From a bacterium (GTDB lineage: Bacteria; Actinomycetota; Acidimicrobiia; Spongiisociales; Spongiisociaceae): DNA of 64,000 bases. The notes beneath the pieces are model-generated. The model saw nothing but the letters and a program-made list of their open reading frames with translations, made no database searches and was not told the origin of the DNA. Position 1 is the first letter of the stretch. Each line of letters opens with the position of its first letter. Shown one piece after another: positions 5,785-64,000 of this stretch. The position numbers and the translations under genes were made by a program. The stretch spans positions 1 to 64,000 of the forward strand of contig JAPOQZ010000266.1 of assembly GCA_026710435.1 (NCBI GenBank). The letters are read 5' to 3'.

Positions 5785-7289
5785 CCACCCACCCCCGCGA
5801 CGACCGGCTCGGTCTTCGCGTAGGCCTCGGTCCAGTCGTAGGCGCCGGCGTCGTCACCCATGACGTCGGGCGTGAGTCCCATGTACCCGAGTATCCCGGG
5901 GACGTCCATCGGCTGGATCATTCCGGCGAGGAAACGCTCCACCACCGTCTTGCTGTTGAGAGCGTCCCGATCCTCCCACCAGATCTGGCGGCAGCCCTTG
6001 GTGCAGAAGTGGTACGTCACGCCGTTGTGCTTGAGCGAATGGTTGCGTACCCGCCACTTGCCGTCCCGTCCGTACGTTGCGTTGCAGGTCGGGAGGTGGC
6101 AGTAGTTGCACAGCCACGGGAGCGTCTCGGGTAGGGCACGGTGCATGTTTCCGGCGTTGATGTTCTCCGCCAGTAGCTTCCACTTGTCACCGTAGAGGAC
6201 ATCCCAGTTGGGATACTTCTCGATCAGCCACTCGCGGGACTCGGGCGATACCCCGACCGGCTTCCACCACAGGGTCGGGCGCCAGAACCACTCACCCATC
6301 TGCAGCGAGTGATGCCACACGTCGAGGCCCTCGATGAACTCGTCCCAGTACCAGGGGCGCTTGAGGCCGTAGTCCTGGATGGTGCGGACGAACTGGTCGA
6401 TGATCCACTCTTCCATGAACTCCCGGTAGCTGTACTTGCGGGACTCGACCGGGGTGTTGTAGTCCATCGACGGTCCGGTGAGGGCGGCGAAAGCCCGCGC
6501 AGAGAGCCAGAAGAACTTGTCGACCGTCCACTGCGCCCGCACCGGATCGTGCTCCACCAGGACCTCAAGTGTGGGTCCGCCCTGCTGCGAGTGGCGAGCC
6601 TCGTCGGTCTGGATCGAGGAGATCAGGTTGGCGAAGGCCACGTCACCGGCCTCGAGGGCGTCGGACGCCAGCGCCACGAACTGGATGTTGGTGAAGCCGG
6701 TCTCGAAGGCGAACGGAAGCTGGATGGCGATGTCCACCACGCTGCCACCGATCATCATGTTGTCGATCAGCGCCCGCAGAGCGATGGCTACCCAGTCGTT
6801 GGTGAGCAACGCCCTGTGAGCCCAATCGAACTGGGGATCGCGTTCCACCAACTCGTGGGCGAACGACAAGCTGAGCTGGCCGTGTCGGATCTCGTCGAGG
6901 GTGCCCATCACGGCCATGTTGCGCCACGCGGGGCTCAACCCGAAGCGGGCCATGCGGCTTTCCCCGTACACGGCTGCATACTCGACCAGGGCAATCCCGC
7001 CGAGGTGCATCTTGACCGACGACCTCCACGCCTCGTCCAACTGTTCGTACTGGTTCGACCGGCTCAGGGCGGCCTTCACCGCGTAGGCGGAGGTTTCCTT
7101 TTCGTCCTGGGTGGCGACGTATTCGGGGTAGGCGACCTTGTAGCTCTCCTCCCAGGCCGACCAAGCCTCACGGGGAACCTTGCCCGTTCCGCTCAGCCAG
7201 TCGGGGTAGACGGCTTCGTCGTCCACGTAACCGAGAGTCCAGTCGACATCCCGGACGATCCCTTGCCATTCTTCACGTCTAAGGGTCAT
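5781..7289 (-). CDS. Di-iron monooxygenase hydroxylase alpha subunit (TmoA-like, catalytic)
   Basis: A 502-residue catalytic subunit. The di-iron ligands are visible as E103, E133/H136 (DEIRH), E196 (FETGF) and E230/H233 (DEARH), each one residue offset from toluene-4-monooxygenase E104, E134/H137, E197, E231/H234. The active-site Thr is T200. A C-terminal Cys-rich YHS-like segment (CNYCHLPTCNATYG, HFCTKGCRQIWW) is present. Pocket positions equivalent to T4MO G103, Q141 and F176 are V102, S140 and I175, so the substrate range probably differs. It inserts O2 into an aromatic, alkene or terpenoid substrate. It is the fourth gene of the operon, 13 nt after a SnoaL-like gene. Confidence 0.95.
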   Translation of the reverse strand: MTLRREEWQGIVRDVDWTLGYVDDEAVYPDWLSGTGKVPREAWSAWEESYKVAYPEYVATQDEKETSAYAVKAALSRSNQYEQLDEAWRSSVKMHLGGIALVEYAAVYGESRMARFGLSPAWRNMAVMGTLDEIRHGQLSLSFAHELVERDPQFDWAHRALLTNDWVAIALRALIDNMMIGGSVVDIAIQLPFAFETGFTNIQFVALASDALEAGDVAFANLISSIQTDEARHSQQGGPTLEVLVEHDPVRAQWTVDKFFWLSARAFAALTGPSMDYNTPVESRKYSYREFMEEWIIDQFVRTIQDYGLKRPWYWDEFIEGLDVWHHSLQMGEWFWRPTLWWKPVGVSPESREWLIEKYPNWDVLYGDKWKLLAENINAGNMHRALPETLPWLCNYCHLPTCNATYGRDGKWRVRNHSLKHNGVTYHFCTKGCRQIWWEDRDALNSKTVVERFLAGMIQPMDVPGILGYMGLTPDVMGDDAGAYDWTEAYAKTEPVVAGVGG

Positions 7290-7302
7290 GGTTCCTCCTT
7301 CC

Positions 7303-7767
7303 TCAGTCGACTTCCATGTGGCCGAGTTGGCGATAGATGGAGGCGCTGTCCCAGTAGGCGGTCAGGCTCTCGATCTTGCCGCCGTCGTTGACATCGAAGA
7401 TGAACGCGTGGGGCTCCCAGTACTTCTTGCCCTGGGGGGCGATCGGTCCCCACGCCTTCTCCTGGCAGCCGCCGATGCTCACCACCGCAGCCACCTTCCC
7501 GTCGTCGGAGGCGGTGATGGAGTGGACCTCGTTGGTTAGGTCGGGGAAGGAGTTGATCAGTCCCTCCCAAATGGGCCGGCCGAGTGTGGCCACCTTCCCG
7601 TCGCCCCTGATGACCCTTTGCTTGGTCCATATCTCGAACGGGACGTACGAGAAGTCGGCGTTGTCGGTACAGAGATCTACCATCGACAGCGTGTCGTGTC
7701 GCCGGTAGGCATCGAAGAAGGCTTCAACCGTTGTGACGGGGTCCGCCTTCGTAGCAGTTGCAGTCAT
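7303..7767 (-). CDS. SnoaL/NTF2-like protein
   Basis: A 154-residue cone-shaped NTF2-like protein: helix VEAFFDAYRRHDTLSMVDL, acidic CTDNADFSYVPF loop, and terminal strands GGKIESLTAYWDSASIYRQLG. Such proteins act as polyketide-cyclase-like isomerases, hydrolases or binding proteins. It lies directly upstream of the alpha subunit gene, so it may act on the oxygenation product. The ATG at 7767 has a GGAAGGGAG ribosome site; the longer ORF is a read-back. A second SnoaL-like gene lies upstream. Confidence 0.82.
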   Translation of the reverse strand: MTATATKADPVTTVEAFFDAYRRHDTLSMVDLCTDNADFSYVPFEIWTKQRVIRGDGKVATLGRPIWEGLINSFPDLTNEVHSITASDDGKVAAVVSIGGCQEKAWGPIAPQGKKYWEPHAFIFDVNDGGKIESLTAYWDSASIYRQLGHMEVD

Positions 7768-28744: not shown

Positions 28745-28800
28745 CAGACCAACCACGGGAGCCGCGATACCAGCCGGCTGCGCATAGCGTGAACGCGCTC
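28745..28800 (-). repeat. Solo distal part of repeat family 2 (copy F)
   Basis: On the minus strand this reads CGTTCACGCTATGCGCAG and then CTCCCGTGGTTGGTCTG, matching the extension found beyond copy E at 22838-22890. The hairpin core is absent. It is a partial remnant in a 411-base gap that also holds MITE copy 2; nothing else is recognised there. Confidence 0.6.
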
Positions 28801-28873
28801 TTGTCTGGACCAGGTACAAACGGAGAGTCCCGCCTATACGGGTAGTGTCATCCGGAAGCGTCCGGGAGCCAGG

Positions 28874-29662
28874 ATGACCATTCGCCGCAGCATCGTCGAT
28901 ACCCCGCATGGCCAGCTTCATGTGCGGGCCATCGCCGGGGAGGGGCGGCCGCTGCTGCTCCTCCACCAGTCGCCCCGGAGCGGGCGCATGTTCGAACCGT
29001 TGATGGAGCGGGTCGGTCGCCCGTCCATGGCGCCGGACCGGATCGGCTACGGGTTCTCCGACCCGGGACCTACCGAACCGACTATCGAGACTTATGCCGA
29101 GTCCACCATGGCGGTAGTTGACACCGCCGGGTGGGACACCTTCGATGTCCTCGGTATCCACACCGGCTCCATGGAGGCGGTAGCTATCGGAATCGGCTGG
29201 CCGGAACGCGTGAACAGGGTAGCCATCGTGGCGGTGCCCGTGTTCAGCTCGGAGGAGGCCGCCGAGATCGCCTCCCTGTACGCCGAGCCCCGGGCGGTGC
29301 CGGTCGAGGACGGATCCCACCTGCTCGAGTACTGGCAGGCCCGGCTCGTCTGGAGGGACCCTCCCTACGACCTGGCCCACCTCCAGACCCTGACCGTGGA
29401 GGAACTCCTCATAGCCGATCGGGCTCACATCGCCTACCGGGCAGTGGTCGGTTGGCCGATGCAGGAGAAACTTACGCAGCTAGCGGCACCGCTGGTGGTC
29501 TTCGCTCCGCACGACGATCTGGTGGTCCAGACTGCGCACATGCGGGACCGGCTTCCGGGAGGAACGGTCTACTTGGACCTACCCCACATGGATATGGACA
29601 TCTTTCACCGCCATCCCGACGAGATGGCATCGCTGGTCAGGAAGTACCTACCTGCTCGTTAG
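28874..29662 (+). CDS. Alpha/beta-hydrolase-fold protein with a GxHTG elbow
   Basis: A 262-residue alpha/beta-hydrolase fold protein: DTPHGQLHVR start, LLLLHQSPRSG oxyanion region, and PDRIGYGFSD. The nucleophile elbow is GIHTGS (94-99), with His96 where Ser normally stands. A C-terminal LPHMDMDIFHRHP supplies candidate catalytic His. It resembles the second domain of 43310-44959 and both domains of 62448-64000, which share the HTG motif. It may be a lyase, esterase-like or cofactor-free enzyme; serine-hydrolase chemistry is unlikely. Confidence 0.85.
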   Translation: MTIRRSIVDTPHGQLHVRAIAGEGRPLLLLHQSPRSGRMFEPLMERVGRPSMAPDRIGYGFSDPGPTEPTIETYAESTMAVVDTAGWDTFDVLGIHTGSMEAVAIGIGWPERVNRVAIVAVPVFSSEEAAEIASLYAEPRAVPVEDGSHLLEYWQARLVWRDPPYDLAHLQTLTVEELLIADRAHIAYRAVVGWPMQEKLTQLAAPLVVFAPHDDLVVQTAHMRDRLPGGTVYLDLPHMDMDIFHRHPDEMASLVRKYLPAR

Positions 29663-35667: not shown

Positions 35668-36660
35668 GTGGAGTCAAGCCGGTGTAGTTGGGCGGACAGC
35701 TCGGGGAGTGGTCGTATTCTGTTTTCCGAAGTAAGGCTAGGAACGATCTCGGTGGCGGACCTGGAGAGGTCCCAGGACTTCTATCACGGCGCATTCGGTT
35801 ACCTGGCCAAGGGGACCGGTGTCCTGCGTGCTGAGGACGACGGCGGTCGGGTGGGGGAATCTTGGATGATGCCCGATGGCATGACAGCCCGCTTTGCGGT
35901 CGTCGGGCCGGCCCGCTGTGACAGTTGCCTGCTCCGCATCGTGGAGTTCGACGCGCCGGGTCAACCGATCTGGGATGACTTGCCGGCCGGGAAGGTGATA
36001 GGTCATTACGCGCTGAACATACGGGTTCCCGAGATCCACACCGGCTGGGAGCGGATCGTCGCTGCCGGGGGGCGGATCAAGTCACCCCCGACGCACTGGC
36101 ACCTGAGCGACGGCTCGGCCTGGGACTCCCAGATCTACGACCCCGATGGGATCCTGATCGATGCCTGGAGCGTGGAGGGGGAGATCGCGGAGAGGTTGGG
36201 AGCCGCGATGGATCCGGCCAGCGAGTTGCAGACCATGGCACTCCACGTGGGTGATGCGGTCCGTTCGAAGGAGTTCTATCTGGGGTTCGGATACGGCGTC
36301 CTGTACGACCAGCAAGTCAAAGGTCTGGAGGAGTTCTTCGGTGTGCCCGACGGTGTCGTCATGCACAACGTGAATCTGATCATGGAGCACACACCGGTCG
36401 GCAGGATGGAGATGAGCCAGTACCTCGGCCATCCGGGGATCGAGGTCAAGCCCCGGGCGGTTCCGCCGAACCACGGGATCCTGTCGGTCACCTTCGAGGC
36501 AGGCGATCTGCCGTCCGCTTCTGCCCATGTGGTCGACCTTGGCGCCGAGCCGATCGGGGGTCCGGCGACCTATGCAGTGCTCCCCTACGGACAGGTGGCG
36601 GCGTCCACCTTCTTCGGACCGGACGGCGAGATGGTCGAAATCTTCGAAAGGATCGGATAG
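35668..36660 (+). CDS. Two-domain VOC (glyoxalase/extradiol dioxygenase-like) protein
   Basis: A 330-residue protein with two paired beta-alpha-beta-beta-beta modules. The first is SEVRLGTISVADLERSQDFYHG and the second is MALHVGDAVRSKEFYLGFGYG. GHYALNIRV and FGPDGEMVEIFE supply candidate metal-ligand positions. It resembles 52194-53120 over its length. Such proteins are extradiol-type dioxygenases, lyases or epimerases. The GTG at 35668 lacks a strong ribosome site and the domain starts near residue 18, so the true start is uncertain. It is the first gene of an operon with a flavoprotein and an amidohydrolase. Confidence 0.8.
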   Translation: MESSRCSWADSSGSGRILFSEVRLGTISVADLERSQDFYHGAFGYLAKGTGVLRAEDDGGRVGESWMMPDGMTARFAVVGPARCDSCLLRIVEFDAPGQPIWDDLPAGKVIGHYALNIRVPEIHTGWERIVAAGGRIKSPPTHWHLSDGSAWDSQIYDPDGILIDAWSVEGEIAERLGAAMDPASELQTMALHVGDAVRSKEFYLGFGYGVLYDQQVKGLEEFFGVPDGVVMHNVNLIMEHTPVGRMEMSQYLGHPGIEVKPRAVPPNHGILSVTFEAGDLPSASAHVVDLGAEPIGGPATYAVLPYGQVAASTFFGPDGEMVEIFERIG

Positions 36661-42632: not shown

Positions 42633-43313
42633 GTGCGGCACAGGATGTACAGGGGACGGATCGACTACGTTCATCGTTCCGACGGGGAGATCGGCCGGGA
42701 GTGGTTCAGTGTGACCGTCCAGCCCAACGGGGACCGGACGTTGCGCGCCCACTGCGAGATGGACGATGTGGAACTACTGCGCGACGTCGTGCAGACTCTC
42801 GACGGCGACTGGCTTCTGGTGGACGTCTTCGTGAGGCTCACCCAGTATGGACGGTTCGTCGGGAGCGGCTGGTTCAACTTCGAGGATGACGGCATCCAGT
42901 GCGAGTCGGTCACCGCCGACGCCGGCCGCGTATCCCAGTGGGTTCCCACGGAGGGCCGGGTGCGGCTCTTTGCCAGCCACCCTCTGGCGGCGGACGGGAT
43001 GCAGTGCGCTGGTTACGACCATGGATCCGACGAGCGGATTCAGACCATCCGTCCCTGGGCCAATCCGTCTCCCCGGCCGGACGGAGCTTCGGGTCCCATC
43101 GCCGCGATCGGCAAGAAGGTAATCGAATATGTGGGGGAGGAGGAGATCACCGTCCCGGCCGGGACGTTCGAGACGCGGCACTACCTGCTCCATCCGTCCA
43201 GGCCCGAATGGACGCCGCTGGAGACGTGGGTCACCGGACCCGACTACGTATTCGTCAAGTTGAGCTGGGACGTTCTGGAAGCCGATTACGTCTTGGCGGA
43301 ACTGGAACTCTGA
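42633..43313 (+). CDS. Uncharacterised beta-rich protein (DUF3108-like)
   Basis: A 226-residue protein beginning with GTG after GGAGGAGGACGG. It is strand-rich (RIDYVHRSDGEIGREWFSV, VFVRLTQYGRFVGSGWFNF) with a late YVGEEEITVPAGTFETRHYLL block, the pattern of DUF3108-like lipid- or cofactor-associated barrels. Its CTGA end overlaps the likely start of the tandem hydrolase. The role is unknown. Confidence 0.6.
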   Translation: MRHRMYRGRIDYVHRSDGEIGREWFSVTVQPNGDRTLRAHCEMDDVELLRDVVQTLDGDWLLVDVFVRLTQYGRFVGSGWFNFEDDGIQCESVTADAGRVSQWVPTEGRVRLFASHPLAADGMQCAGYDHGSDERIQTIRPWANPSPRPDGASGPIAAIGKKVIEYVGEEEITVPAGTFETRHYLLHPSRPEWTPLETWVTGPDYVFVKLSWDVLEADYVLAELEL

Positions 43314-44959
43314 TCGCCGCGGAGGCGGTACGGCGCCGGTTCATCGACATCGGTGGGCGGCGGCTCCAGTACCGGATCGCCGGTGAAGGGCCGCCGGTGG
43401 TCGTGCTCCACGACGTACCCGGCTCATCGACCCAAGTGGCCGGCCTAGCGGCCGAGTTGGCCAGAACCAGACGGGTGTACGTTCCGGACGCACCCGGTCA
43501 CGGACTCTCATCCTCCACAGGCTCGGCCGAGGACCTGCCTGCCTTCTCCGAGTCGATCGTAGGGTTCGTCGAAGCTCTCGGTCTTGGCAGGGTCCCGCTG
43601 GTCGCCCCCGGCGTCGGGGGGCTCCTCGCGTTGACGGTGGCAGCCACCGACCCGGCGCGGTTCCCCGTCGTGGCCGACGACACCGTACTCACCTCCCGTG
43701 AGCGGCGGGTCCGGCTAGCGGAACACGGATACCCGTCTTTCTCCCCGCGTCTCGACGGCAGCCATCTTCCGGCGGCATGGCACTGGGCGCGAAGCCGCTT
43801 CATGTACCGGGCGCCTTCCGGTGGTACCGCCGAGGACCGGGTCCGGGCCGACCTTCCGTCTCCGGAATGGCTCAGTGACCTGGTGGTGGCGATCCTCCGG
43901 ACCGGAGACGGCTACGCGGACCTCGCCCGCCGGGCGCTGCTGCAGGATCCCGGTCCGGCGCTCCGGGCCTTGGAGGAAGGCGGCACGTTGCACGTGGCCG
44001 ACTTCGGTCCTCCGGAATCCCCTTCGGATGCTGTCCTGCAGGCGGTGGAAGCCGTCGGCGATCTCTCGCCCGCTCCCGCACTTCCGTCCCAACCCGGGTC
44101 ATTGCGCGGTTCCATCTCGCGGATGTTCGTCGACACCCCGCAGGGCCAACTGCATCTGAGACGATCGGGTAGCGGTGGTACGCCCCTGTTGATGATCCAC
44201 CAGTCGCCCGGTTCGGCCGAGAGTCTGGAGACCATGATCTCCTGCCTAGCATCCGACCGGCTCGTCCTGGCGCCCGACACGCTCGGAAACGGCCACTCGG
44301 ACAAACCTCCGGTGGACAGCGCCGACATCGGCTACTACTCCGACGTCTTGTCGGATGCCTTGAGCGAGCTGGGCATCGAAAGGGTCGACGTCTGGGGATC
44401 TCACACCGGAGCTCTCATCGCGATGGAGTTCGCCGTCCGGTATCCGGAACGGGTTCGGGCGGTCGGCATGGACGGGATCACGTTGTTCGATCCCGCCTTC
44501 GTCCGGGAGGCCCTCGCCAACTACTTCCCGCCTCTGGAGCCGGACATGCACGGGCTGCACCTCCTCCGAGCCTGGCTTATCCGTCTGGACATGTACCTGT
44601 ACTGGCCCTGGTACAACCACACCGCCGCGGGCTCCAACATACGACCGCTACCCGATGTCGCAGCTCTGAAACAGTGGGCCGACGACCTGCTGGCGAGCGG
44701 GCGCAGCTGGCGCGTTGCCTACCGGGCCGCCTTCGAGTACCAGACTCGGGACCGCCTCCCGCTGCTGGCCCGGCCGACCCTCCTGGCCACGTCGCCGGTC
44801 GATCCGCTCCGTTTCTACTCCCAGGAGGCGGCACGGATCAGCAGCGCCGTCACGCTGGCCGAATCGGAAGGCTACGCCACTCCGGAGGCCTCGCGGCGCA
44901 CCGCCGAGGTATACAGGGGTTTCTTCGACCGTCACGACGAACAGGAGTGCCATGTCTGA
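43310..44959 (+). CDS. Tandem alpha/beta-hydrolase didomain protein
   Basis: A ~549-residue protein with two alpha/beta-hydrolase folds. Domain 1 (to ~residue 260) has VVVLHDVPGSST and VYVPDAPGHGLSS, but an elbow APGVGGLL with Gly at the nucleophile position. Domain 2 begins MFVDTPQGQLHLR and has WGSHTGALIAMEFA, with His at that position. A like-built protein lies at 62448-64000 and a single-domain relative at 28874-29662. No ATG, GTG or TTG lies near the start of homology; CTG at 43310 overlapping the upstream stop (CTGA) is my best guess. Confidence 0.8.
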   Translation: MIAAEAVRRRFIDIGGRRLQYRIAGEGPPVVVLHDVPGSSTQVAGLAAELARTRRVYVPDAPGHGLSSSTGSAEDLPAFSESIVGFVEALGLGRVPLVAPGVGGLLALTVAATDPARFPVVADDTVLTSRERRVRLAEHGYPSFSPRLDGSHLPAAWHWARSRFMYRAPSGGTAEDRVRADLPSPEWLSDLVVAILRTGDGYADLARRALLQDPGPALRALEEGGTLHVADFGPPESPSDAVLQAVEAVGDLSPAPALPSQPGSLRGSISRMFVDTPQGQLHLRRSGSGGTPLLMIHQSPGSAESLETMISCLASDRLVLAPDTLGNGHSDKPPVDSADIGYYSDVLSDALSELGIERVDVWGSHTGALIAMEFAVRYPERVRAVGMDGITLFDPAFVREALANYFPPLEPDMHGLHLLRAWLIRLDMYLYWPWYNHTAAGSNIRPLPDVAALKQWADDLLASGRSWRVAYRAAFEYQTRDRLPLLARPTLLATSPVDPLRFYSQEAARISSAVTLAESEGYATPEASRRTAEVYRGFFDRHDEQECHV

Positions 44960-45944
44960 ACACGGAACCGCTCTCGGGGTCTCCGTATGCGGGGTCGACA
45001 ACCTCGAGGGATCGCTGGAGTACTACCGGGACCTGGTCGGCCTCGATGTCGTCGATAGGGGAACCTGGTCTGGTCGGGAGTTCGAGGATCACTGGCACCT
45101 GCCCGCCGGGAGTTCGGCCCGGACCGCCCTGCTCGGCTTCGGTGGCAGTCCTGTGGGCCGCGTACTGCTTCTCGAGTTCGACGCCTCCCAACGTCTGCGG
45201 GTACGGCCGCAGAAGGAGCGGGCCTTCTACGGGTTGTTCAACCTCAACTTCTACTGCTACGACATCCCGGCGGCGGTAGTGGAACTGAAGGAGCGCGGCT
45301 ACGACGTGTGGAGCGATCCGCTCACCTACGATGTCTCGGCCCAGGCCGGCCAACCCACCGAGGTCCTGTACGACGGGCCTGACGGGGTCATCATCAACCT
45401 CGTCCAGCCGGCTGGCGGGGGAGGGACCGCCGTGGGCGAGATGAAGGCTTACCTGGACTCTCACGGTGTCACGCAGCGGGGCTTCACAGAGGTGGCGACC
45501 TCGTCCCATCGGGTCAAGGACCGGGAGGCGGCTTTTGCCTTCCACCGCGATGTCCTCGGCCAGGACGTGTTCATAGACGCCACCCTCGGATCCGAGACCA
45601 GTAACCAACTGTGGGCCCTCCCGGACGAGGCTCGTACGAGGGCTACGTTCATGCGGGGTGCCCATCCGTTCGGCAAGGTCGTCCTGAGCCAACCCCTCAA
45701 CTACCGGCCACCCGACTTCGTCCCTCGCGCGGTCGCTCCCAACATCGGCTACCTGGCGATGGTGTTCCCGGTATCGGATCTCGGCACTGCTCTGGGTGCG
45801 GCCGACCTGGGTGACGACGGAGTAATAAACCCACCCGCGGAGATGCTGCTCCCAGGCGTGGGTAGGAGGGCCGTGGCCGCCATCAGGGCTCCCGGCAGTG
45901 GGGCACGCTACGAACTCATGGAGGACGAGGTCCCTCTGCCCTGA
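44952..45944 (+). CDS. Two-domain VOC (glyoxalase/dioxygenase-like) protein
   Basis: A 330-residue VOC protein: module 1 VSVCGVDNLEGSLEYYRDLVG and module 2 FTEVATSSHRVKDREAAFAFH, each with FNLNFYCYDI- or IGYLAMVFPV-like central strands. It overlaps the end of the tandem hydrolase gene by 8 nt, so it is coupled. It probably acts on a ring-fission or epoxide-derived intermediate of the same pathway. Metal ligands cannot be assigned with certainty. Confidence 0.85.
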   Translation: MSEHGTALGVSVCGVDNLEGSLEYYRDLVGLDVVDRGTWSGREFEDHWHLPAGSSARTALLGFGGSPVGRVLLLEFDASQRLRVRPQKERAFYGLFNLNFYCYDIPAAVVELKERGYDVWSDPLTYDVSAQAGQPTEVLYDGPDGVIINLVQPAGGGGTAVGEMKAYLDSHGVTQRGFTEVATSSHRVKDREAAFAFHRDVLGQDVFIDATLGSETSNQLWALPDEARTRATFMRGAHPFGKVVLSQPLNYRPPDFVPRAVAPNIGYLAMVFPVSDLGTALGAADLGDDGVINPPAEMLLPGVGRRAVAAIRAPGSGARYELMEDEVPLP

Positions 45945-48976: not shown

Positions 48977-49933
48977 TCACAGGGGTTGGCGGATCTCGAA
49001 GCGTTCCTCGTTGGGTCCGGCCAGGATCGCGATCCTGTACCGATCACCTCCCACCGGCACTTCCGATGGGCCGGCGAGGATCTCGTCGGGGTTGGCCCGG
49101 TCCAGGACCTCGTCCAGGTCCGCCACATCGTGGGTATAGAGGGAGATTCCGAGGTTGCGGGGATGCATGCGACCTGTGAGCCGGCGTCCGGTGCCCTCGT
49201 AGAAGTGGACGAGGAGGTACTTGCCGCTCGGGTCCGGCGGTGCATTGAATACCAGGAAGTGCATAGGTGTGCCGGGAGGAGCTCCCACCAGTTCGTTGGC
49301 GACGTCGAGCAGGTCGTCGGCGACGTCGGCCGCGCTGCGGACATTCAATCCCAGCACCTCCCCGTAGAAACGTCTACTGGTGTCGGGATCGTCGCATATG
49401 ACCGAAACCGTGGCGATCTCGCTGTAGCGGGCGCCGGGTGGTTGAACCCGGTGCGAGCTGGCCGGGTGGTTGACCGCCACCATGAGCAGGAAGGGAACCC
49501 CGTCCGGGCCGGTGAACAGCAGTTCCTCCGTCTCGGTAGGTCCGATCACGTAGTGGATCGGTCGCGAACGGGGAGGGAAGCCGGCGGCGGTCATCTCGGC
49601 GATGGCCTCGGCCAGGTCATGGTTCGCGTAGAAGTCGATCGCCTTGGGACCCACGTCCACGGCCGCGTCCGGACCGTCAAGGTCATCTCGCACCCGCTGC
49701 GTGGCAGGCGGGTCGTGTTCCACCAACCGGAGGTGGCCACTCGGGTAGCCCTGATAGGAGAGGTGAGTGACCCGCGCTGTGGTCTCCGGGTCCAGACCCC
49801 AGAGGTCGAGGAGTGGGCGGCTTGCCTCCCACTGAGACTCGATGCGAAGGCCTACCACGTCACGGAACAGGCGTAGGGCTGCCCCGGTTTCGCTTACACC
49901 GATGGTCACTATCCGCAACGGTCCTACGGACAT
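48977..49933 (-). CDS. Two-domain VOC (glyoxalase/dioxygenase-like) protein
   Basis: A 318-residue VOC protein. Module 1 is RIVTIGVSETGAALRLFRDVVG and module 2 is IATVSVICDDPDTSRRFYGE, with LVHFYEGTGRRLTGRMHPRN and RIAILAGPNEERFEI as later strands. The ATG at 49933 has GGAAAGGA upstream; the longer ORF runs back through repeat family 2 and is not coding. The substrate is unknown. It is the third of four VOC proteins here. Confidence 0.85.
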   Translation of the reverse strand: MSVGPLRIVTIGVSETGAALRLFRDVVGLRIESQWEASRPLLDLWGLDPETTARVTHLSYQGYPSGHLRLVEHDPPATQRVRDDLDGPDAAVDVGPKAIDFYANHDLAEAIAEMTAAGFPPRSRPIHYVIGPTETEELLFTGPDGVPFLLMVAVNHPASSHRVQPPGARYSEIATVSVICDDPDTSRRFYGEVLGLNVRSAADVADDLLDVANELVGAPPGTPMHFLVFNAPPDPSGKYLLVHFYEGTGRRLTGRMHPRNLGISLYTHDVADLDEVLDRANPDEILAGPSEVPVGGDRYRIAILAGPNEERFEIRQPL

Positions 49934-52050: not shown

Positions 52051-52193
52051 CCAGCGCGGGGCGGGACTACCTGCCTGTGGAGGCGCTGGCGACCGGGTAG
52101 CATGAGGTGCCGCGGAGGCGGTTTCCGACTGTCGCCGGCCCGGAGAGTCCGTCCTTCGCATCTTGGTCAGAATGGACATCCCGGGGAGTACCG

Positions 52194-53120
52194 ATGATCT
52201 CACCTATATCGGTTGCCACGATCGGGGTCAGCGACCTCGAGAGATCGGCCAGGTTCTACCGACACCTGCTGGATTGGGAGTTGGTGGCGGCAGGGGACGT
52301 GGACGGGCCCGATCTCGAGGCCCTATGGCGAATGCCCGCCGGCCTGCGTGGTCGGGCGGTGGTGATAGGTGCTCCCGGCACCGCCCTGGGTCGCGTCCGG
52401 CTCATCGAATGGGCGAAGCCGGGAGAGATGGTGCGCGATCCCGCCCGGAACCAGGACTTCGGGCACTACGCCCTCAACTTTCGGGTTGGCGATCTGGAGT
52501 CGGTCTGGGAACGCCTCGAGGAGATCGGGGGCAGCGCCAGGTCGAGGCCCAACACATGGGTGGTGGCTGAAGGTATCCTCGCCCATGACTCGCTGTGCTA
52601 CGACCCCGACCGCATTACATGTGACGTGTTCGAGCTTCCCGACGAGGGCCCACTCGGTCCTCTGGGCGATCGCCCGTCCAGCGAACTCCAGACGATGGCG
52701 ATCCGTCCGAGCGACATTGCTGCTTCAGTGGCGTTCTACCAGGGCTTGGGATATGAGGTTTGGTACGACCACAAGACCGACGGGATAGAGGGATTCCTCC
52801 ATCTCCCGGAGGGCACCACGCTCCACAATGTGAACTTCCACATGCCGCGGCAGAGCCGTAACGGGCGCGTCGAGCTGGCCGCTTACCTCGGGTTTCCCGG
52901 AGTGCCGACTTCGCATCTGGCGGTGCCTCCCAATATCGGCATCATGTCGATCACGTTCGAGAGCGATGACTTCGACCACGACGTGAGCCTCTTGGAGAAG
53001 GTGGGAGGCTTCCCGGTTGCTACTTCTGACGGGGTGGAGATCGTACCTTATGGGCCAACCAGGGTCGCCACGTACTTGGGACCCGACGGCGAGGCCATCG
53101 AATTGGTGGAGGTCGGATGA
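52194..53120 (+). CDS. Two-domain VOC (glyoxalase/dioxygenase-like) protein
   Basis: A 308-residue VOC protein: module 1 ISVATIGVSDLERSARFYRHL and module 2 TMAIRPSDIAASVAFYQGLG. GHYALNFRV and YLGPDGEAIELVEV carry candidate metal-ligand positions. It aligns end to end with 35668-36660. GGGGAG precedes the ATG at 52194. Its stop overlaps the start of the AhpD-like gene (ATGA), so the two proteins are made together. Confidence 0.87.
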   Translation: MISPISVATIGVSDLERSARFYRHLLDWELVAAGDVDGPDLEALWRMPAGLRGRAVVIGAPGTALGRVRLIEWAKPGEMVRDPARNQDFGHYALNFRVGDLESVWERLEEIGGSARSRPNTWVVAEGILAHDSLCYDPDRITCDVFELPDEGPLGPLGDRPSSELQTMAIRPSDIAASVAFYQGLGYEVWYDHKTDGIEGFLHLPEGTTLHNVNFHMPRQSRNGRVELAAYLGFPGVPTSHLAVPPNIGIMSITFESDDFDHDVSLLEKVGGFPVATSDGVEIVPYGPTRVATYLGPDGEAIELVEVG

Positions 53121-62447: not shown

Positions 62448-64000
62448 TCATGGAAGAGCGTCCTGCAGGAAGGCTCGGTACAGGGCGATCGTGCTCTCGG
62501 GTGACACCAACTCCCTGTACCGGCTGTGGATCGGGACGGCAAGGTCCTCCGTCTGCTCGATGCGGGCGGTTGGCAGGATCCGGGAAGCTGCTTCGAGGTG
62601 CACGATCCAGGGGTCGGTAGGCCGGGCACAGATGAGCATCTCGGCCTTGATGAGGGGCAGGCGCTCGGTGGTGGGATATTCCCAGAGGGCGACGAAGTTG
62701 TGGTGGTAGGTGCGCCCTCCTTTCAGGAACTCCACCAGGCTGTGATGGATGTCGGCCGCGGGAGCGAACCTGCCCACGCGTGTACCGGCGGCGGTCCGAG
62801 CGTAGAACGGCCACCACAGCAGCACGTCCCTCAGGTAGTTCCAGGCCCAGAGGAGGTGCGAACCGTCCCACGAGGGAACCATCGGCGGTTGGTAGTTGTC
62901 GATGAAGTCCTGGCTCTCGTCGGGTGTGTATATCGGGATGCCGTCCAGGATCAGGTGACGTACCAGGGAGGGCCTCTCGATCGCCAGTTGCATGCCGAGC
63001 ACCGCGCCGGTGTGGTTGCCGTACACGTCGTAGTCCTCGTGGCCCTCCGCATCGCACACTTCCCCCACCAGACGGGCTAGATCCGCCATATCAGGCTTCC
63101 CGGAGAACGGCGCCGAGTCCCCGTTCCCCGGTGTGTCCAGCGCCAGCGCCGGCCGGTCGGCGCCCATCGCCCGCATGAGAGGTTCGAGCGCCGCGCCGGA
63201 ACCGGGTGGCGATGCCTGCAGGAGCAGGAGGGGTCTCCCCTCGCCCGGGATGCGTCGCACGAGCATCTGCCCGGCCGAGGTGGCGACGTACCCCCGCTGG
63301 ACGGTCCCCGGATCGAGCGCCGCCCGGCGCGGTGGCGGGGCGTCGGGCAGGTCGGGATCCGCTAGAAATGACTGAACCAGGTCGGCCAGGTCGGCCAGGT
63401 CGGAGGTACGCCGCATCCTGATCTCGGCGTTCTCGACCCGATCCGGGAGGCGTCCCAGATGCTCCGCGAGCGGGTCGTCCGGACCCACCGTGATCATCGT
63501 CGGCACGGACAAGCGGGCGAGGGCCTCGGTTGGCTCGTAGCGGAAGGACGCATGGTAGAGCTGCCAGTAGAGAGGCCCGGCCCTCATCATGTCCAGGACC
63601 TTGTCGTGCAGCCCGCCGGCCGTGGGCATGTCGAGCACTCGCCGCGCCTCGGGGGTCCTCCGGTACCAGGGCCAGAACAGCAACATGTCGCGGCGCATCG
63701 CCCAGGTCCGTACCAGATGGGACCCGTCCCACTGCGGTTTAAGGGATGGCGCGTAGTTGGCCACCAGGTCGGTGCGCTCGTCCTCCGTATAGGCCGCGAG
63801 AGCATTGAGGATCACGCGGTTGACCCGTCTCGCATGCCGGTGGGCGAAGTCCAGAGCCAGGGTGGCGCCTGTATGCGATCCGTAGAGATCGACCCGGTCC
63901 AGCCCCATCCAATCGAGCGTCTTGGCCAGGGCGTCCGAGTAGTCGGCGCACGACGGAGCTGCGAGCCCGAGGCCCGCCGACTCGCCTGCTCCCGGGGTGT
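62448..64000 (-). CDS. Tandem alpha/beta-hydrolase protein, 5' end outside the window
   Basis: Residues after the window edge continue the frame upstream of the track start (GLAAPSCADYSDALAKTLDW), so the gene is cut by the window and the Met at 63908 is internal. Domain 1 has LYGSHTGATLALDFA; domain 2 begins VATSAGQMLVRRIPGEGRPL and has VYGNHTGAVLGMQLA. His replaces the nucleophile Ser in both. Domain 1 and 2 share the pattern QWDGSHLVRTWAMRRD / SWDGSHLLWAWNYLRD, evidence for internal duplication. It resembles 43310-44959. Confidence 0.85.
   Translation of the reverse strand, partial: TPGAGESAGLGLAAPSCADYSDALAKTLDWMGLDRVDLYGSHTGATLALDFAHRHARRVNRVILNALAAYTEDERTDLVANYAPSLKPQWDGSHLVRTWAMRRDMLLFWPWYRRTPEARRVLDMPTAGGLHDKVLDMMRAGPLYWQLYHASFRYEPTEALARLSVPTMITVGPDDPLAEHLGRLPDRVENAEIRMRRTSDLADLADLVQSFLADPDLPDAPPPRRAALDPGTVQRGYVATSAGQMLVRRIPGEGRPLLLLQASPPGSGAALEPLMRAMGADRPALALDTPGNGDSAPFSGKPDMADLARLVGEVCDAEGHEDYDVYGNHTGAVLGMQLAIERPSLVRHLILDGIPIYTPDESQDFIDNYQPPMVPSWDGSHLLWAWNYLRDVLLWWPFYARTAAGTRVGRFAPAADIHHSLVEFLKGGRTYHHNFVALWEYPTTERLPLIKAEMLICARPTDPWIVHLEAASRILPTARIEQTEDLAVPIHSRYRELVSPESTIALYRAFLQDALP

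Follow-up and report, generated by a model that had tools for sequence, protein, structure and literature searches.

Proteins of the alpha/beta-hydrolase fold superfamily are described in a 2024 review as using S-D/E-H, D-D/E-H and C-D-H triads or D/E-H dyads, with the histidine on the loop that follows strand beta8 (PMC11878206); the available portions of that review give the residue at the nucleophile elbow as Ser, Cys or Asp and do not mention an elbow His. The same portions describe dyad-only proteins, which are carboxy-lyase-like and have a D/E-H dyad without Ser, and triad-less proteins such as DUF3530, which are probably non-enzymatic (PMC11878206). The closest described systems to the protein reported here are the canonical Abhydrolase_1/6 enzymes (epoxide hydrolase, haloalkane and fluoroacetate dehalogenases, HsaD/BphD), with which each of its halves shares the core fold and the elbow and acid positions. 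These enzymes have Ser, Asp or Cys at the elbow and a catalytic His, whereas our protein consists of two fused domains with Gly or His at the elbow and belongs to a tandem family in which the catalytic His is mostly absent. Within a literature that largely leaves out subscription journals, a search for the GxHTG motif or an elbow His found no paper, and a search for an assay or a characterised member of the tandem GxHTG family also found none. This widespread family of fused twins, with its repeated loss of one site, is thus apparently undescribed, a term that is provisional because subscription journals lie mostly outside the literature searched.

Two fused alpha/beta-hydrolase domains

The gene lies in a window of 64,000 nucleotides (the whole stretch of DNA that was analysed) and has the following features.

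43310–44959, forward strand: tandem alpha/beta-hydrolase gene, 549 residues plus stop; start codon non-canonical, possibly CTG
43310–44083, forward strand: domain 1 (residues 1–258), with an elbow Gly, no post-beta7 Asp and the beta8 segment deleted
43610–43612, forward strand: codon of Gly101 at the nucleophile-elbow position of domain 1 (APGVGG)
44111–44956, forward strand: domain 2 (residues 268–549), the His-bearing half
44198–44215, forward strand: HQSPGS loop after beta3 of domain 2, at the oxyanion-hole position
44402–44404, forward strand: codon of His365 at the nucleophile-elbow position of domain 2 (GSHTGA)
44549–44563, forward strand: cap motif HGLHL (DGxHL...W in the family), also retained in degenerate halves
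44801–44803, forward strand: codon of Asp498, which immediately follows beta7 of domain 2 and in the family at large shows a strong association with the elbow His

On translation, positions 43310–44956 form a single uninterrupted frame of 549 residues with no internal stops. Pfam Abhydrolase_1 matches the halves separately (42.0 bits for domain 1 and 56.7 bits for domain 2, cut-off 25.8), and these matches, an AF2 model and Foldseek all place both halves in the fold superfamily. The AF2 model of the whole protein, with 93 aligned homologs as input (pLDDT 94.6, pTM 0.94), holds the two domains in one confident joint arrangement and puts G101 and H365 both at the end of beta5, just ahead of the next helix, which is the nucleophile elbow. 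The original prediction had read two fused hydrolase folds with Gly at the elbow of the first and His at that of the second and had proposed structure prediction as a check; the frame, the Pfam matches and this single confident model bear it out. A correction concerns the start: there is no ATG, GTG or TTG at the 5' end of domain 1 (window positions 43280–43345). Alignment of the start region has GAG in the window gene against ATG in a congener, and the start may lie at a CTG (43310) that overlaps the upstream gene's TGA.

That the fusion is an assembly artefact, with the domains being separate genes in homologs, is excluded by the congener's copy, which is 74% identical and begins with ATG, by the same protein type on Azospirillum plasmids, and by a survey of didomain homologs that recovered about 90 fused homologs across Actinomycetota, Chloroflexota and Pseudomonadota, in independent assemblies.

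Domain 1 is more degenerate than had been proposed. It has lost the post-beta7 acid position, where the congener also lacks an Asp, and beta8 is absent from it in the AF2 model; from the elbow to domain 2 there are 178 residues versus a family median of 201, a stretch about 20 residues shorter. The elbow residue, Gly in two genomes, is Asp in the Azospirillum homologs (AFDLA) and is therefore unconstrained within the subfamily. Nei-Gojobori dN/dS is 0.235 for domain 1 (dS 1.16) and 0.116 for domain 2 (dS 0.90), values that are approximate at such high dS. Since domain 1 is under purifying selection, it is a maintained pseudo-half and not decaying sequence, and its retention would fit the binding or scaffolding role suggested for it in the original prediction. 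As far as the review describes it, DUF3530 is alike in retaining the fold after loss of catalytic residues, but it stands alone, whereas the dead domain 1 is fused to a half with conserved site residues (PMC11878206).

Domain 2 and the elbow histidine

Neither half has Ser at the elbow (Gly101, His365) or the serine-hydrolase His on the post-beta8 loop, domain 1 having no beta8 and the corresponding loop of domain 2 reading LAESEGYATPEASRR, which contains no His. With His at the elbow and none on this loop, domain 2 is therefore not a serine hydrolase. The Asp nucleophile of epoxide hydrolases and haloalkane dehalogenases is likewise missing (elbow Gly or His); NCBIfam dehalogenase models reach at most 79 bits against cut-offs of at least 241, and the HsaD model for meta-cleavage C-C hydrolases (HsaD/BphD; NF045632) scores 77 bits against a cut-off of 400. 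Every NCBIfam match is far under its cut-off, and assignment to a known enzyme family by this route was rejected. Among the 50 Foldseek matches listed no PDB entry covers both domains (TM normalised to query at most 0.43), and the alignments listed include no solved relative with an elbow His.

Judged by its motifs, the His half is itself no canonical hydrolase but a member of a broad GxHTG group, a point that the original prediction missed: domain 2 has HxSPxS after beta3, the GxHTG elbow, the GxHL...W cap and the post-beta7 Asp, and in this group the elbow His is almost always accompanied by that Asp. The protein as a whole falls in the tandem GxHTG family as delimited in this analysis, having two fused domains, HxxPxS and GxHL...W in both, and, in one half or both, an elbow His together with the Asp. 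No member of this family has the canonical Ser, and most lack the canonical post-beta8 His. The latter is retained (GHGMMD type) in some relatives with a single domain or from the second fusion, so that an elbow His may or may not be accompanied by a His after beta8.

In the N-terminal halves of the tandem family, His and Asp are both present in 71, both missing in 21 and represented by His only in one, with none having Asp only; the corresponding numbers for C-terminal halves are 18, 38 and 1, with a further 36 having Asp only. The His-Asp association is strong by Fisher's test (p = 6e-20 for N-halves and 2e-4 for C-halves) with kinship ignored, and a phylogenetically independent test of His-Asp co-loss, with only four independent pairs, is not significant. 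About half of the degenerate C-halves retain the Asp. In His-type N-halves the His, Thr and Asp are 99–100% conserved.

Origin of the fusion and loss of the site

A homolog scan, limited to one genome for each species, identified 120 candidate stretches; 80 loci were retained, and nearly all of them encode tandem proteins. Alphaproteobacteria contribute 45 of these and Gammaproteobacteria 17, the remainder being from other Pseudomonadota, Actinomycetota, Chloroflexota and two loci of one MAG labelled Marinimicrobia, counts that represent a biased sample because only two seed motifs were used. Among 296 sampled genomes of the class, the window's own genome is the only carrier of the tandem family, and the congener is the sole other carrier met among relatives.

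In maximum-likelihood trees the main family separates into a clade of N-halves and a clade of C-halves, each of 27 rows (100/98 and 99/90, respectively), and therefore a single ancient fusion is indicated; when two single-domain proteins from plasmids are included, the N split is firm (99/99) and the C split weaker (63/73). The same trees rule out a swap of domain order in which domain 1 of the window protein would be homologous to the C-half of the others. The trees suggest that after the fusion it was mostly the C-half that lost the His site, the window protein being the rarer reverse case. A single loss of the His accounts for a large C-half clade (17 rows, 100/96), and on separate occasions N-halves lost it in three lineages or more: those of window type (elbow Gly or Asp), of GEQAG type and of GNATG/GAATG type. 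The reverse-polarity group comprises the window protein, the congener and the Azospirillum type (C-halves 100/97; N-halves 89/62), the Azospirillum protein being the sister of the window protein in the C-half tree (100/97). In two sub-lineages (GEQAG/GMWGG and G[NA]ATG/GRYSG) neither half retains the His, and elbow-His chemistry is thus not universal in the family. One-sided loss of the putative site, which the original prediction did not recognise as a family trait, recurs in the family, usually in the C-terminal half. Proteins with the site lost on the N side, on the C side, on both and on neither all exist, and the family constitutes a natural experiment on site loss in fused twins.

Gene neighbourhood

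Paralogs and recurrent partners of the gene are located in the window as follows.

28793–29662, forward strand: single-domain GxHTG paralog (GIHTG)
42633–43313, forward strand: upstream DUF3108/DUF6134-like half-barrel gene, a recurrent partner; its stop overlaps the hydrolase start
44952–45944, forward strand: downstream tandem VOC/glyoxalase gene, a recurrent partner; overlaps the hydrolase stop and lacks the usual His ligand positions
62448–64000, reverse strand: tandem hydrolase paralog whose halves both have an elbow His (GSHTG, GNHTG); runs beyond the window end

The last of these had been described as having the same build with His in both domains, as its sequence indeed reads; the gene extends about 190 bases beyond the window, within the same contig, which is 83 kb long. 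The gene order around the window protein is nitroreductase, DUF3108-like, tandem hydrolase, tandem VOC and Zn-alcohol dehydrogenase, and the congener repeats the first four. Eight of the nine tandem VOC genes in the assembly, and three of its four DUF3108-like genes, lie on two contigs with tandem hydrolases that make up 2.6% of the assembly. The DUF3108-like protein at 42633–43313 has no Pfam match; its predicted fold is a half-barrel similar to DUF1849 (6ntr; TM about 0.6), and among 397 sampled genomes of the phylum its gene is present in the window's genome only. The DUF3108/DUF6134-like family also recurs beside GxHTG hydrolases in several classes and on contigs C232 and C252 of this assembly (L104–L106).

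Four tandem VOC proteins are encoded in the window (35668–36657, 44952–45944, 48980–49933 and 52107–53120), all without the usual His ligand positions. The VOC partner was considered as an extradiol dioxygenase, for which there is no support; the usual His ligand positions are V/T or other residues, and because these ligands are missing the VOC proteins should not be called dioxygenases. An Illumina adapter suspected near 53115 from a CSSDL-like reading was ruled out, no adapter being present there.

In the sphingomonad plasmids pJE1 and pSA1 (L118, L121) VOC, single-domain GSHTG hydrolase and DUF3108-like genes are clustered and a tandem hydrolase gene lies a few genes from them, and pTomTYG65b (L122) has the same layout. 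Annotation places CoA-transferase, HMG-CoA-lyase and isopropylmalate-dehydratase genes nearby on pJE1 and pTomTYG65b; a literature search on pJE1 found no papers. The shared plasmid cluster is a putative catabolic pathway, as read from its gene content, and the neighbouring tandem VOC and DUF3108-like half-barrel genes suggest a catabolic module for the window gene also. The family occurs in genomes and plasmids of organisms rich in uncharacterised catabolic genes.

Proposed function

We somewhat favour a reading in which one ancient tandem fusion gave an intramolecular pseudo-dimer of two alpha/beta-hydrolase domains with a putative active site in domain 2, the only plausible one, formed by the elbow His H365 and the post-beta7 Asp D498 under the conserved cap. 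H365, polarised by D498, would take over from the Ser/His pair as general base or nucleophile, and the oxyanion loop is retained. Domain 1, having neither His/Asp nor the last strand, would be kept for a structural role, holding or capping domain 2 or aiding substrate binding, and the enzyme would work with the tandem VOC and DUF3108-like half-barrel proteins in the breakdown of an organic compound. The best reading is thus of a putative one-site enzyme with a scaffolding pseudo-half. The Asp kept by half of the degenerate C-halves, and the non-significant phylogenetic test of co-loss, count against it. The proposed site resembles the dyad-only proteins in having an acid-His pair without Ser; as far as the review states, the His of those proteins is on the post-beta8 loop, whereas domain 2 has its His at the elbow and the tandem family has mostly lost the loop His (PMC11878206). 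A conserved elbow His with the usual His gone would, if catalytic, be a different way of building a hydrolase-fold site.

The main rival, which we consider rather improbable, is that neither half is catalytic and that the elbow His and Asp line the binding pocket of a ligand-binding or scaffolding protein. It takes this position because two sub-lineages retain the fold and the tandem protein while dispensing with the elbow His in both halves, a counterpoint to any His-based site, and the family-wide absence of Ser and the lack of the loop His in most members are in keeping with it. The near-invariance of His, Thr and Asp in His-type N-halves and the joint disappearance of His and Asp from N-halves are however the pattern of an active site, and the catabolic gene setting also argues against a purely binding role. 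The constraint on domain 1, the fixed arrangement of the domains (pTM 0.94) and the GxHL...W motif kept in degenerate halves could instead reflect a composite active site to which domain 1 supplies residues for domain 2, with the reverse in homologs having a degenerate C-half; this is unlikely, as single-domain GxHTG proteins are encoded both in this genome and outside it, and a partner domain is therefore not always needed. That the gene is a decaying or mis-assembled fusion, whether pseudogene or artefact, is very improbable: it has no ATG, GTG or TTG start and genome contamination is estimated at 7.62%, but the congener copy with its ATG, the same build in Azospirillum, the fused homologs and dN/dS well under 1 in both halves all stand against it.

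A wider reading that contains the preferred one-site enzyme is offered tentatively, as plausible but doubtful: GxHTG proteins would belong to a conserved catabolic module with metal-less tandem VOC and DUF3108-like half-barrel proteins, the fused form being repeatedly a pseudo-enzyme in one half.

Further arrangements of the tandem genes

A second tandem fusion, independent of the first and with an elbow His in each half, is nested inside the single-domain clade in the tree; its proteins (L066, L083, L055, L082, L076) often have the post-beta8 His and are encoded beside a main-family tandem protein. The GEQAG/GMWGG tandem hydrolases (L041, L043, L046, L052, L056, L065 and L067; about positions 5950–7710) lie directly downstream of the same large gene, which encodes about 910–1040 residues and looks by eye like an aconitase gene. 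In L036, L039, L040 and L049 there are two consecutive tandem hydrolase genes, GNATG/GRYSG followed by GAATG/GRYSG (GRYAG in one), without an elbow His.
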